A stretch of DNA of 64,000 nucleotides. It comes from Daucus carota subsp. sativus (taxonomy: Eukaryota > Streptophyta > Magnoliopsida > Apiales > Apiaceae). Position 1 is the first letter of the stretch; every line of letters begins with the position of its first letter. The position numbers and the translations under genes were made by a program. The notes beneath the pieces are model-generated. The model was given only the letters and a program-made list of their open reading frames with translations, was not told the DNA's origin and ran no database searches. Shown in pieces: positions 361 through 62,555 of this stretch. The stretch is from positions 55,728,949-55,792,948 of the forward strand of contig NC_030383.2 in the NCBI RefSeq assembly GCF_001625215.2. Reading direction: 5' to 3'.

Positions 361-936
361 GTCCTACTCCAATAGAAACCAAATTAGCCTAAAAACTAAA
401 AACCAGTTTCTGGACAGTTTCTTATCACTATTTTTAACTACAGAAATCACTAATTTGTACATAACATATCACTAATTTATATATAGCATATCTCGCGGAT
501 ATAAATATATATATATACACATATATGCAACGTATATGACCATCATCTTCACCCAAATCGTAATAATGGACCTCTTACCACCATTACCAGACGTTTCGAT
601 GACTTGCCACCATTGTCTATCATCACCAATAGTCACATACACTTTCCATCATAACTTACAAAACTAACGACTACTTACCATCATCATACAACTTCTCTTG
701 CGGCTTCCTACCGTCAAGAACCTTCCAACGGATGAAATTGATCATCTTATAATCGATTATCAATAGTTTTGATAAGTAGATTTTCTCAATTTTGATAATA
801 AAAATCGTTGTTTACATATTGTATAAAAACAGTGATTAGTGCAGTATAAATTAGTGATACCCGTAGTTATAAATAGTGTTAAGGAAACTGGTTTCTAGTT
901 TTTATTTTAAGAGTGGTTTCTATTTGATCATGAGCC
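361..936. mobile_element. (TA)n-bounded inverted-end element, 'AATAGAAACC' family, copy 1
   Basis: The left end reads GTCCTACTCCAATAGAAACC. The right end, on the opposite strand, reads GGCTCATGATCAAATAGAAACC, and both continue into an AAAACTA-rich stretch ending in ACCAG. The element lies between (TA)n/(GA)n on the left and (TA)n on the right. The interior has no coding capacity and repeats a motif like ATCACTAATTTGTA. The copy at 29185-29858 has nearly the same ends, and those at 60345-60741 and 60779-61645 are more diverged. The superfamily is not clear: a MITE or a short Helitron2/Helentron-like derivative are both possible. Confidence 0.75.
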
Positions 937-958
937 TATATATATATATATATATATA

Positions 959-1410
959 GGGGAGGGTTCTGGTACAAACTTACAAACTTTTTTTGTTCAA
1001 CGCATATATAACTTGAGTTCAACATTTTTTCAACATTTTTTGTTGAACATTGACTAAAATAGTGGTGGATAAGTACATAAACCAATTTTTAAATGTAAGA
1101 ACTAAGGTAAACATGTTATATAACTAATATTTATGTTTCTAGACCCTACCCAAACCCTAGAGGTATAGTTTAAACATATTTTTAGATATATTCAACACAA
1201 TGATAATTAGTGTTCAACACCCGATGTTGAACCCCAGTTATAAATGTGTTGAAAACGCGATTTATTTATGCGTTATTTTTAAAAATTGTGATGTTTTTTG
1301 AAAAATTTTCAACATGGATACTTTATATAACTAAGGATTAACACGATAGGAGAATAAAAAAAAAGTTTGTAAGTTTGTAACTTAAAAAAGTTTTTATTTG
1401 ATCCTATCCC
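959..1410. mobile_element. (TA)n-bounded inverted-end element, 'ACAAACTTACAAACT' family
   Basis: The left end, GGGGAGGGTTCTGGTACAAA, runs into CTTACAAACTTTTTTT. The right end read on the minus strand is GGGATAGGATCAAATAAAAA followed by a matching TTACAAACTTACAAACTTTTT. (TA)n tracts of 15-28 bases flank both sides. The interior is AT-rich with several TTCAACA motifs and no coding frame. No target duplication can be read because the flank is itself TA repeat. Confidence 0.75.
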
Positions 1411-1438
1411 TATATATATATATATATATATATATATA

Positions 1439-2844
1439 GGGGATGATTCAATGAGGAACTTATTAATCTGGGTAACTGGGTAACTCAAGTCCAGCCGCAC
1501 GATAGAATTTTTTACGGTGTACCTTAGATGTATCCAATAAAACTGTTAAACACGTGGGCCATCATAATTCTCCCCACGTCTATATTTTACTTCACAAATA
1601 CTGTGTATCTATCCATGTACTTCAATAGGCACATTCATTTTATTAAAAAATACTTTTATTCTTATGTTTTAGTTTATAATATTTTTTATGAATTAAAAGT
1701 ATTCTACTTTAATTTTTCTTCTCTATTATTTAAATACTCAAAAAAATATATTCAAATATTTTTATACGGCATATTTTTACAAAATTATATATTCTGATTT
1801 TTTTTTATTTTGATGTTCATAATTTTTTGATAGTTTATTTTTATGGCTTTATCCTGCATTTGCACTTTCAATTCAGTATATTCAGTTTGTGAGTATTATG
1901 TTTTTTAATTATTAAATAAATAAAATACTGAACATGTGAGAAAAATATAAATAAAATACATAACATTAAAATACAGTACACATATTTTTATACAACATAC
2001 ATAACATTAAAATACAGTACACATATTTTTATACAACATACATAACATTAAAATACAGTACACATATTTAAAATACAGTACACATATTTAAATTACACAA
2101 TACAATACATATATTCTTATAAATGGTACATAACATTAAAATATAATAAACATATTTTTATACAACATACTGACATTAAAATACAGTACACATATTTTTA
2201 TACAACATACATAATATTAAAATACAGTACACATATTTAAAATACACAATACAATATATATATTCTTATACATGGTACATAACATTAAAATATAATAAAC
2301 ATATTTTTATACAACATACGTGACATTGAAATACAGTACACATATTTTTATACAACATACATAACATTAAAATACAGTACACATATTTTTATAAAAATAC
2401 ATAACACTAAATAGAAATTCTTTAAACAAATTTTCGAGTTTAGATTTACAAAAAAAATTCACATAATTTTTAATTAATATCAATTTTTGTATGTATAACC
2501 TATTTATAAAATTCATAATAACATTACAATAAAAAATTCACAAAATACATAACATAAAATATAGTACATATATAAAATAAATTGTAAAATAAATAATATA
2601 AAAATTTACAGAACACTAGAAAAAATTATGAAACTTAAAATAGAACACAATTAGTAGGAAAAACACTTCTGACACGTATAAAAAGCAGTTATAAATGTTG
2701 TGCACATATGACAAAGAATAACTATCATTTGGTGAGATCATGTACCACGCGTAACACATAAGTTATGTGTATATAATAATCTAAAGGCTGAGATTGAAAG
2801 TTACTCAGTTACTAATTATACTGGTTACCCACTGAGAAGCCCCC
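1439..2844. mobile_element. (TA)n-bounded inverted-end element, 'GGGTAACTGGGTAACTC' family, copy 1
   Basis: The left end is GGGGATGATTCAATGAGGAA, continuing to two GGGTAACT motifs and CAGCCGCACGAT. The right end on the minus strand is GGGGGCTTCTCAGTGGGTAA. (TA)n flanks both sides. The same termini, including CAGCCGCACGAT, are found inverted in the element at 8266-9408, so the two are copies of one family in opposite orientation. The interior is about 80% A+T and includes a tandem array. The longest open frame (1528-1797) looks like AT-rich noise. Confidence 0.78.
1954..2408. repeat. Tandem array, unit about 40 bases, inside the 1439-2844 element
   Basis: The motif ACATAACATTAAAATACAGT followed by ACACATATTTTTATACAAC recurs about ten times with point changes and partial units. 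There are no unique spacers, so it is not a CRISPR array. It is an internal satellite-like expansion of the host element. Confidence 0.85.
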
Positions 2845-2889
2845 ATATATATATACATATATATATATATATATATATATATATATATA

Positions 2890-60344: not shown

Positions 60345-60741
60345 GGGTCTTACTCCAATTCAAACCAAATTAGCCTATAAACTAAAAATCACTAGGTATA
60401 CCCCCAATTTTACTATATTCACTCCATAATTATTAACTGCACTCCACTACATGACTTCATATTATTTATTTATTATTTTTTTTAAATTTCAGGGGAACCC
60501 AAGTGCTGACGTGATAGTCTGGGTGACCCTTGACGTGACGGTTTGGATGGGGGCCATAATGCTGACATGTCGGGTGACATGACGTCTGGGTGGGTTCCAC
60601 TGCTGACGTGACATTTGGGCAAAAAGTGTAGCTTTTGAAAAATTGATGTGCTAGTTTTAAAATGTATAAAGAGATCTTTGATCATTTTAAAACTAGTTTT
60701 TAGTTTTTTAGACTAATATTGGTTTGTATTTAATCATCTTC
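60345..60741. mobile_element. (TA)n-bounded element related to the 'AATAGAAACC' family
   Basis: The left end is GGGTCTTACTCCAATTCAAA, then CCAAATTAGCCTATAAACTA. The right end on the minus strand is GAAGATGATTAAATACAAAC, then CAATATTAGTCTAAAAAACTA. Short (TA)n lies on both sides. Non-coding; an array of TGACGTGAC/TGACATG motifs fills the middle. Confidence 0.7.
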
Positions 60742-60778
60742 ATATATATATAAATATATATAGAGAGAGATAGAGAGA

Positions 60779-61645
60779 GGGAGAGTTCTATTCAACTACA
60801 AACCACCTAAATCTAAAAACTAAAAACCTGGGATCCATCCCACTTTTCTAATCAGCCCAGCCCACTTCTCTGACTATTGTTGCTTACCACTTTCCTATAA
60901 TTCGTAGGAAAATGATATACACAACATATACATACAAAACTATGTATAGCATATACATACAAAATGATTATCAATTAACACAAACCCATCCTCTCTGATC
61001 TTCATCTTCTTCGATCTCTAATTTCTATGTTTGAGAAGTAACGTAATTAATAATCTAAAATGCAATCATGAGAGAAGACATGAAAATCACTAATTTCAAC
61101 AACACAAATCACTATATTCTAAAACCAATATCACTGATTTATAAAGCGGTTATCACTAATTTATAAAACGAATATCACTAATTTGTATAGCAGAAATCAT
61201 TAATTTCTATAACTATATCAAAGCTTTAACAACACCAAAATCCATGTCTGAGCGTTAATCATTCAAGACATTAAGAGAGAGGTCGTCGAAAAAGATTGGG
61301 GGAGGGGAAGGAAAAGATGGAGAAAGTGATGACGGCGAATGGACAGATCTGCTGATAGCAGGGAAAGAAAGGTGATCTAATGATGGGAAAGATTAATGAT
61401 GGGAAAGATGAAGGGTGGAGCTGGTGACGATGATGGTGAAATCAAGGTCAGGGATGGATGGATAATGGTGGCGGATCGCAGGTGACAACGGTAGTGAGTG
61501 TTAACTCATATCAGGGGAAGTAGGGGCTTGTTGGTCGGAGGCAGATCTGGGTGGGTGGGTTTTACTAATTCCAAGTGTGGGGATTAGTTTTAACAGAGTG
61601 TCTTTAGTAATTACAAGAGTTTTAATAGTGATTTTTAGTTTTTAT
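60779..61645. mobile_element. (GA)n/(TA)n-bounded element of the 'ACAAACC' type, right end eroded
   Basis: The left end is GGGAGAGTTCTATTCAACTA, then CAAACCACC and AAAAACTAAAAACC. The right side has the matching GATTTTTAGTTTTTATTA but lacks the last 20 or so bases of a full terminus. The repeated ATCACTAATTT(A/G)TA motif (61100-61200) links it to the copies at 361-936 and 29185-29858. Confidence 0.65.
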
Positions 61646-61656
61646 TATATATATAT

Positions 61657-62555
61657 GGGTAAGGTTCAAATTAGAACCAATATTAAAATTAGAACTTAGG
61701 ACCACACACATCCATCAGATGAATTTGAATTCAATGGTCATGATCTGCCTAGCTATATAAATATAAATTACAACTTAATGATATTTAAGATACCTTATCT
61801 TTATATGTAAATCATTACTACAAATCATAATAATCATTAACTACTACCTAATCATCATAATAATCAGTTAATATATATGCAATTTGTTATAAATGCAAAT
61901 CAAACTTGCAACATGTGATTCTCAATCAATTTTAATAATATAATATTACAAAATACGATATTCTGTTGCAGTACACGTAAATATTACAAAAAATGAGATT
62001 CTACTACAGTACATATCTGTGATTCTCAATCAATTTTAATAATATAATATTACAAAATATGATATTCTGTTGCAGTATAGTAAATATTACAAAAAATGAG
62101 ATTCTGTTGCAGTACATATCTAGCTCATATAATATTACAAAACACGAGATTCTGCTGCAGTACATATCTAGCTCATATAATATTGCACAACATGAGATTC
62201 TGATGTAGTACATATCTAACTCATATAATATTAAAAAACACGAAATTCTGTTGCAGTACATATAGATAATAATAAAATATCAAAACAAACACACTCCAGT
62301 TCTTCGTATTTTGGAGTTCTGTTGAATCACACTACGAAGATATTGAATTAAATATTAAATGTATTTTGATTGTTGAAATGATCAAATATAAATTAAGAAT
62401 GTGCATTGATTGAGATATTTATATTTAAATATGTACTAAATTAAAACACATTCATACGTTAATTAATTTCACACATTCAAATTACTCTCATTTAATGATT
62501 ATTAAATATGGTTCTAAGGTTCTAAGTTTAAGCGGTTCTATCAGGAACCTGACCC
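61657..62555. mobile_element. (TA)n-bounded element with TAGAACC ends
   Basis: The left end GGGTAAGGTTCAAATTAGAA is followed by CC. The right end on the minus strand is GGGTCAGGTTCCTGATAGAA, then CCGCTTAAACTTAGAACC, pairing with AAAATTAGAACTTAGGACC on the left. (TA)n lies on both sides. It contains a tandem array at 61935-62262. It is the clearest example of the shared GGG...GGTTC...AGAACC end. Confidence 0.78.
61935..62262. repeat. Tandem array, unit about 52-55 bases
   Basis: TAATATTACAAAA(C/T)A(C/T)GA(G/T)ATTCTG(T/C)TGCAGTACATATCTAGCTCATA recurs about six times. The first two units are a longer variant with TGTGATTCTCAATCAATTTT. The minus-strand frame across it (62004-62261) is a repeat artefact, and there are no CRISPR-like spacers. 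Confidence 0.87.

Follow-up and report, generated by a model that had tools for sequence, protein, structure and literature searches.

The window analysed here, 64,000 nucleotides of Daucus carota subsp. sativus DNA (NC_030383.2, positions 55,728,949 to 55,792,948 of the forward strand), contains fourteen short elements at the positions given for them in an initial annotation, with boundaries that agree within a few bases. The elements and their associated sites are as follows (strand in brackets, with a dot where none is assigned).

359..936 (.): E1, family F1; 578 bp, end frame at 359(+) and 936(-)
959..1410 (.): E2, family F2; flanked by a TA tract on both sides, placed by its ends
1439..2844 (.): E3, family F3; placed by ends, inverted repeat and flank phase
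2890..3315 (+): E4, family F4; placed by ends and alignment to E6
3373..3767 (.): E5, family F5; right end adjoins (TC)n
3829..4255 (-): E6, second F4 copy; placed by ends and alignment to E4
4272..4634 (.): E7, family F7; right end followed by (TC)n and then (TA)n, right register at 4634
7344..7558 (+): sibling copy of the E8 host repeat without E8, a related empty site; insertion point about 7463-7475
8266..9408 (.): E8, family F3; lying in one host-repeat copy, with flanking TA tracts of 79 and 71 bp
28021..28030 (+): left copy of the E9 target duplication, TGTATATATA, 10 bp
28031..29168 (.): E9, family F7; GC 0.47
29169..29178 (+): right copy of the E9 target duplication, 10 bp
29185..29858 (.): E10, family F1; GC 0.46
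29906..31701 (.): E11, family F11; internal tandem repeats of ~290 bp
60345..60742 (.): E12, family F1; placed by ends, inverted repeat and flanks
60783..61645 (.): E13, family F1; right end truncated, frame missing
61657..62555 (.): E14, family F14; internal tandem repeats of ~104 bp

The elements had been described as unrelated-looking, and their interiors and lengths do differ. However, E4 and E6 are inverted copies with 97% identity, and an end sequence is common to E1, E10, E12 and E13. E7 and E9 were placed in one family by reading of their ends, while E3 and E8 align weakly. Judged by sequence, the fourteen elements form about eight putative families and so are not all unrelated. Because the left end of E5 is degenerate, its left boundary is uncertain (3369-3373).

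Nearly all the elements had also been said to abut (TA)n on both sides. This holds for 24 of the 28 element sides, where a TA run is reached directly or within a few bases (at most 6); the offset between frame and tract is 2 bases to the right of E9 and 6 bases to the right of E11, and the TA runs adjoining E9 and E12 on the left are shorter than 10 bases. At the remaining four sides (E1 left, E5 right, E7 right and E13 left), (GA)n/(TC)n or a GA-rich stretch lies between element and TA; moving outward from the left end of E1, (GA)n is followed by (TA)n. Microsatellite is thus present on both sides, which is a defining feature of microsatellite-targeted non-autonomous MULEs of the SaTar/MiM kind.

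We then consider the ends themselves, which had been read as three loosely spaced anchors under relaxed terminal recognition. We found that the spacing is largely fixed: in 20 of 27 ends all three anchors lie in one gap-free 22-bp frame that reads roughly GGGT-N4-(T/C)TC-N5-(A/G)AAACC, the right end of E13 being excluded from the 27 because truncation has removed its signature. The ends start with GGG, GGC or GAG in 24 cases, carry TC at frame positions 10-11 in 24 and carry AC at positions 20-21 in 22. The seven ends without the full frame are E10R, E12R, E8L, E4R, E6L, E5L and E5R (L, left; R, right), and among these the frame of E8L is one base short and E5L is degenerate. A mostly fixed 22-bp frame together with a family-specific inner box describes the ends better than relaxed recognition does.

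To score the ends we used a leave-one-family-out profile against 126,608 background positions. Fifteen of the 27 ends scored above every background position, 21 reached p<0.001 and 24 reached p<0.01; the ends that failed the latter threshold were E5L (0.34), E6L (0.04) and E7R (0.016, with its register one base off). In 30 runs with random loci and a free register (+-6), no more than 4 of 27 passed p<0.001. The expectation that the end similarity would exceed chance was therefore borne out. When the register was set mechanically, at the first base past any TA tract at least 10 bases long, scores of 0 or more were obtained for 18 of the 21 labelled element sides (E11R, E9R and E13R fell below). 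None of the 31 other sides reached 0 (best -2.1); these take in E5L as well as the sides where (GA)n leads to E1L, E5R and E7R. When the window was scanned with the profile, the top 20 matches were all listed ends, on which the profile was trained, with E7R found in a better register. The same scan, as a search for unlisted elements away from TA, gave as its next match position 38953, which falls inside an ankyrin ORF.

The last box of the frame is often repeated deeper inside the element in a family-specific version. A family's own box matched 6.74 of 8 positions within its own end, compared with 5.20 for the boxes of other families, and the own-box match was the higher in 8 of 8 family means. 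The left and right boxes of the same element (13 elements) share 6.31 of 8 positions, compared with 4.12 between families; the boxes of F4 differ between its two ends, and at 13 of 27 ends the inner box is not individually significant. Since the boxes are family-specific and mostly match across both ends of an element, their sequence suggests that several related transposases, not one, may act on these families. The proposal of one shared enzyme source exceeds this evidence. Tentatively, we envisage a two-part end code, in which the common 22-bp frame would be read by a conserved transposase core and the family-specific box (spacing about 17 and 25 bp) would assign each family its transposase; insertions would make the next landing sites, and mixed arrays would be self-propagating.

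In 11 of 14 elements the inverted repeats, a further mark of SaTar/MiM elements, outscored every one of 100 single-base shuffles. Clear cases are E1 (59, shuffled maximum 34) and E5 (84.5, shuffled maximum 38). The repeats of E2 (35.0, slightly under the shuffled maximum of 35.5), E8 (16, under the maximum of 22) and E13 are weak and did not exceed all shuffles.

The elements are clustered in arrays of 7, 3 and 3 with gaps of 11-61 bp. Gaps of 61 bp or less separate 10 of 13 neighbouring pairs, whereas in 20,000 runs with random placement the number never exceeded 3. Among the profile matches listed, none lies inside another element, and on these matches the arrays look non-nested. On the same basis they mix families without interruption of one element by another, as SaTar and MiM arrays do.

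A target duplication of 8-11 bp, as required of the Mutator superfamily, was found only at E9, where it is 10 bp given a frame-set boundary. With the boundaries set in this way the E9 flanks match exactly at length 10 only. No other duplication is readable, and within this one the TG is the sole informative part. Its right boundary is taken from the frame; if that boundary were moved outward by two bases, any even TA match would suffice. The flanks of E12 match across 10 bp with one mismatch. Nine elements have TA on both sides, and in eight of them the TA phase between flanks is even, E3 alone being odd; an even phase is required by a 10-bp duplication and forbidden by one of 9 or 3 bp. hAT elements make 8-bp duplications, and we dropped this superfamily on the E9 flanks, which match at 10 and have one mismatch at 8, with the reservation that a boundary two bases out would permit 8. 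PIF/Harbinger and CACTA elements, with duplications of 3 bp (or 2-3 bp), were dropped on the even phase and on the E9 match being restricted to 10 given the frame.

Coding content was assessed by a Pfam scan of 20 ORFs, including 11 of the 18 window ORFs of at least 150 aa. The ten ORFs chosen within elements (4 in E9, 2 in E10, 2 in E12, 1 in E14 and 1 in E8) gave no match. Since none of the six scanned ORFs of E9 and E10 matched, capture of genes by these two GC-rich interiors was set aside. Among the other ten ORFs, all of at least 150 aa, there were ankyrin, PGG, DUF4220/DUF594 and DDE_Tnp_4 matches, and four had no match. No MULE transposase was found in the 20 scanned ORFs. Searches for element copies returned 0 matches, as expected for plant DNA, both in viral contigs (two patterns) and in prokaryote genome contigs (one pattern). 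Among the literature matches listed for the literal end letters, none concerned transposons by title, and among those listed for maize TAFT, none besides PMC4486113 looked relevant by title.

The end frame, inverted repeats, arrays and 10-bp duplication match published microsatellite-targeted non-autonomous MULEs, which makes that class the best fit. We are therefore confident that the locus holds short non-autonomous Mutator-like (MULE) transposons of the SaTar/MiM/MuTAnT/Micron kind, in about eight families, presumably mobilised by transposases supplied in trans and growing into arrays. The best fit is a mostly ordinary case, with defective Mutator-type transposons of a group already known to pile up side by side; the new detail is the end code common to the families. 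The original idea of one mobile class stands as regards a common end, a tie to TA repeats and the comparison with Micron, but not as regards a single enzyme or a Helitron2/Helentron derivation.

Under the MULE reading, related MuDR-type transposases would be supplied in trans and would read the common end, which has a GGG-like start where the cut falls, then a free spacer, (T/C)TC and an AAACC-type box. This box, often repeated further in as a family-specific version, is a putative binding site. The element would be cut out and inserted at a short TA-rich site, where 10 bp would be duplicated, and each insertion would leave TA target on both sides. The next element would consequently land beside the first and not inside it, such that arrays would grow end to end. 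Slippage would afterwards lengthen the TA flanks and make (GA)n from ends beginning GAG. We infer that insertion came first and flank growth second.

We found (GA)n adjoining 4 of 7 ends that begin GAG compared with 0 of 20 others (Fisher p 0.0020), and this restriction means that slippage from the element can produce (GA)n. Both flanks of E8, with TA of 79 and 71 bp, align to a single 13-bp stretch of the empty host-repeat copy, a paralogue whose site has no long TA run. Taken together, these results suggest that the microsatellites probably grew in part after insertion. The alternative that all TA tracts pre-existed and were merely targeted, without growth at the element, draws on the 3 of 15 window TA tracts of at least 20 bp that have no element within 45 bp, and such tracts do exist on their own. 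The E8 host repeat itself carries a 28-bp TA tract (7409-7436) without an adjacent element, so TA can grow without insertion. We nevertheless consider this alternative rather unlikely given the empty E8 site, and the portions of the literature consulted agree: according to PMC5907723, expansion of maize TAFT sites has been reported from a starting length of 6-8 bp, and in MuTAnT the mean is nine TA repeats at empty sites compared with 15 on each flank of filled sites (PMC4486113).

Valdes Franco et al. (PMC5907723) proposed that circular intermediates with microsatellite filler recombine homologously into genomic microsatellites. This would account for non-nesting and for varied microsatellites on the two sides of an element, as at E1, E5 and E7, and in the sections of that paper used here many guayule microsatellite flanks are at odds with simple cut-and-paste insertion and its 10-bp duplication. 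However, (GA)n occurs here only at ends read as GAG, where slippage from the element could yield it, the duplication at E9 is a clean 10 bp, and junctions are as short as 11-16 bp at three places; we regard recombination of circles as improbable at this locus. Several unrelated superfamilies converging on TA microsatellites would explain the differing interiors and lengths and the poor frame fit of E5L and of the GGCC end of F4, yet profiles built without the family in question still recognise most ends and the spacing is common, making convergence highly improbable. Helitron2/Helentron-type rolling-circle derivatives, which have asymmetric ends without long inverted repeats and make no target duplication, share the microsatellite association and AT-rich targets, and an even TA phase is also compatible with duplication-free insertion, but we give this suggestion of the initial annotation almost no credence because both ends carry the same motif inverted, 11 of 14 elements have inverted repeats and E9 has a readable 10-bp duplication.

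The MULE assignment brings many short elements that seem unrelated into one superfamily, and the end signature could detect such elements without reliance on the microsatellite. It also makes testable a question about MULEs in microsatellites, namely whether the TA runs are targeted or made.

Rice Micron and maize TAFT elements likewise insert into TA microsatellites, a likeness by description. The VANDAL elements of Arabidopsis are MULE-type transposons. The likeness to Micron drawn in the initial annotation is supported, since PMC5907723, in the parts drawn on, puts Micron among the Mutator-like SaTar elements; Micron-like MITEs are found mainly in Poaceae and Rosaceae according to the excerpt of PMC12550479. 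As far as the sections of PMC5907723 used here describe them, SaTar elements of guayule, rice, sorghum and citrus resemble ours, by description, in size (0.4-1.9 kb), imperfect inverted repeats, (TA)n or other microsatellite flanks and mixed-family arrays without nesting. Autonomous MULE partners are described, and members of 11 of 15 guayule families show 10-bp duplications outside microsatellites. For the ends, these sections describe a resemblance of some families to autonomous MULEs, but no frame common to all families as found here. MuTAnT of Medicago, in the extracts of PMC4486113, also targets TA microsatellites and has ends that begin with GGGG and contain AGAAC (search mask GGGGTTTGCTAGAACA), but differs in a shorter GGGG-AGAAC distance, 9-bp duplications, a foldback structure and a size of 200-300 bp in 90%. 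The carrot MiM elements, as described in part of PMC8227079, comprise many families with poorly conserved ends in TA stretches. Pineapple Ac-mMITE (part of PMC8449440), again compared by description, comprises two families with similar ends in TA stretches, clusters, GA at element ends beside (GA)n attributed to slippage, and 9/10-bp duplications. Finally, the target motifs of the VANDAL/VANC system, in the portion of PMC5735166 consulted, are often tandem repeats that vary between related elements, as do our boxes; in that system the motifs serve as targets for an anti-silencing protein, whereas the putative boxes described here are known from sequence alone.

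The fourteen short elements of the window (E1 to E14, numbered from left to right, with L and R for their left and right ends) together make up 17% of the sequence, which has an A+T content of 68% and whose genes and published parallels suggest a plant source. They are arranged as follows:

359-4634: array of seven elements
8266-9408: single element (E8)
28031-31701: array of three elements
60345-62555: array of three elements

Between neighbouring elements, 10 of 13 gaps measure at most 61 bp and consist almost entirely of TA repeats or of TA plus GA repeats, while random placement of the elements (20,000 runs) gave no more than three such gaps. 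From sequence, we grouped the fourteen elements into eight putative families:

F1: E1, E10, E12, E13
F3: E3, E8 (by sequence comparison, partly by the ends as read)
F4: E4, E6 (97% identical, inverted relative to each other)
F7: E7, E9 (by the ends as read)
One-member families: E2; E5; E11; E14

Internal tandem repeats are found in E11 (about 290 bp, 30376-31326) and E14 (about 104 bp, 61914-62263). The GC content of E9 and E10 (28031-29858) is 0.46-0.47 versus 0.20-0.36 in the other elements, and both contain proline-rich ORFs. Their GC-rich interiors are possibly captured host DNA.

From the TA run inward, the ends follow a 22-bp frame, approximately GGGT-N4-(T/C)TC-N5-(A/G)AAACC, with the highest information at positions 1-3 (GGG), 10-11 (TC) and 21-22 (CC). 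Among 27 ends, the truncated E13R being excluded, 24 start with GGG, GGC or GAG, 24 have TC at positions 10-11 and 22 have AC at positions 20-21; all three anchors are present gap-free in 20. Each end was scored with a profile trained without its own family against a background of 126,608 positions of the window. The score exceeded every background position for 15 of the 27 ends, and p was <0.001 in 21 and <0.01 in 24. The ends missing p<0.01 were E5L (0.34), E6L (0.04) and E7R (0.016, taken in a register later found to be off). With 27 random loci and free register, at most four ends reached p<0.001 (30 runs). We also scored, without any choice of register and with the family left out, the first base past each of 26 TA tracts of at least 10 bases. 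Scores of at least 0 were found at 18 of 21 labelled element sides versus 0 of 31 other sides, at least four of which lead to elements via (GA)n or a degenerate end. The profile and the nulls thus indicate that the shared end pattern described in the initial annotation is real; the loose spacing proposed with it did not hold, since the spacing is mostly fixed.

The innermost eight bases of the frame form a box (for example TGAGAACC in F7, TAGAAACC in F1, AGAAAACC in F11, TGGAGACC in F5 and GAGTAACC in F3) that tends to reappear deeper inside the element. The best inner copy matched its own box at a mean of 6.74 of 8 letters, versus 5.20 for the boxes of other families and 5.00 in shuffled inner sequence, and the own-box match was the higher in 8 of 8 family means. 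Individually, the inner box fell below 0.05 in 14 of the 27 ends and did not in 13. The spacing from box to inner copy was 15-18 in 13 ends, 23-27 in 11 and 8-13 in three. Left and right boxes of an element have 6.31 of 8 letters in common (13 elements) versus 4.12 for the 144 pairs between families; F4 departs from this, its boxes agreeing at just 3 and 2 of 8. Identity between the two ends of an element (12 elements) was 0.61 at positions 1-3, 0.44 at 4-9, 0.72 at 10-22 and 0.40 at 23-40; between families the values were 0.61, 0.29, 0.55 and 0.35. We infer that an end may combine a cut site with a free spacer and a putative array of family-specific binding sites. Mosquito Mutator-like transposons (MULEs) are reported to carry subterminal tandem repeats (PMC5225508), and Arabidopsis VANDALs are described as having tandem target motifs that vary among related elements (PMC5735166).

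E9 lies between exact copies of TGTATATATA, and its flanks match at length 10 only, although the informative part of this duplication is TG only, the flanks being TA-rich. The boundary is set by the end frame and was not tuned to the duplication, because the right frame of E9 scores 18.5 with its own family left out. The flanks of E12 show one mismatch over 10 bp. TA phase is even in 8 of the 9 elements with TA on both sides (E3 is odd). An even phase is needed for a 10-bp duplication, whereas 9 or 3 bp would make it odd. Even phase by itself is also compatible with 0, 2 or 8 bp, and E9 speaks against these.

E8 splits the second of two host repeat copies (7231-7910 and 7959-9936), whose ends resemble GGGCTGTTTAACGAACC and a similar inverse and which we take, by resemblance, to be possibly hAT-like. 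Its TA flanks are 79 and 71 bp long. The sibling copy, without E8 (7344-7558), has only a short TA-rich stretch at the site, and both flanks align to one 13-bp stretch of it, an alignment that is loose because the sequence is so simple. The site fits a short target, its duplication and later TA growth. However, the sibling has its own 28-bp TA tract with no element there (7409-7436), so TA runs also grow alone, which counts against this reading. (GA)n adjoins 4 of 7 ends starting with GAG versus 0 of 20 other ends, a reading that is partly circular. This is as argued for pineapple, where terminal GA slippage is put forward as a microsatellite source (PMC8449440).

We scanned 20 ORFs against Pfam, 10 from E8, E9, E10, E12 and E14 and 10 of the window's 18 of at least 150 aa, and none matched a MULE transposase. 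The ORFs of the surroundings are:

14101-14760, 18189-18923 and 26643-27281, minus strand: three alike ORFs (212-244 aa) containing hydrophobic stretches; no Pfam match in either of the two scanned (14104, 26646)
34291-36369: DUF4220/DUF594 ORF, beside the following cluster
36836-53698, minus strand: ankyrin/PGG-type ORF cluster; four scanned ORFs had matches (36839, 37793, 38722, 45342) and the rest are alike by eye
55900-56481: ORF without Pfam match
56788-57294: ORF matching DDE_Tnp_4 and Plant_tran, presumably Harbinger-like

The last two are apparently unconnected with the TA-flanked elements. We find no support for the single shared enzyme that had been proposed for all elements, and consider several related enzymes more likely.

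In the passages, titles and abstract openings consulted, we found no published description of a fixed end frame common to many families, and the frame is a modest new structural detail. End similarity between two families is reported in pineapple, and in guayule the ends of some families are said to resemble autonomous MULEs. In carrot, 15 families of microsatellite-targeted elements are reported, with ends usually poorly conserved (PMC8227079). In a survey of 207 plant genomes, Micron is retained among the MITE superfamilies, occurs mainly in Poaceae and Rosaceae, and is cited as probably derived from Mutator (PMC12550479). The work on MuTAnT describes a putative autonomous MULE whose ends are flanked by TA (PMC4486113). 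SaTar elements, among which Micron is included, are described as forming mixed arrays of unrelated elements that never nest, with 10-bp duplications outside microsatellites (PMC5907723). The kind of element is thus well explained, and the members are probably new: by description, the features tested here correspond to those published for microsatellite-targeted non-autonomous MULEs, SaTar elements in particular.
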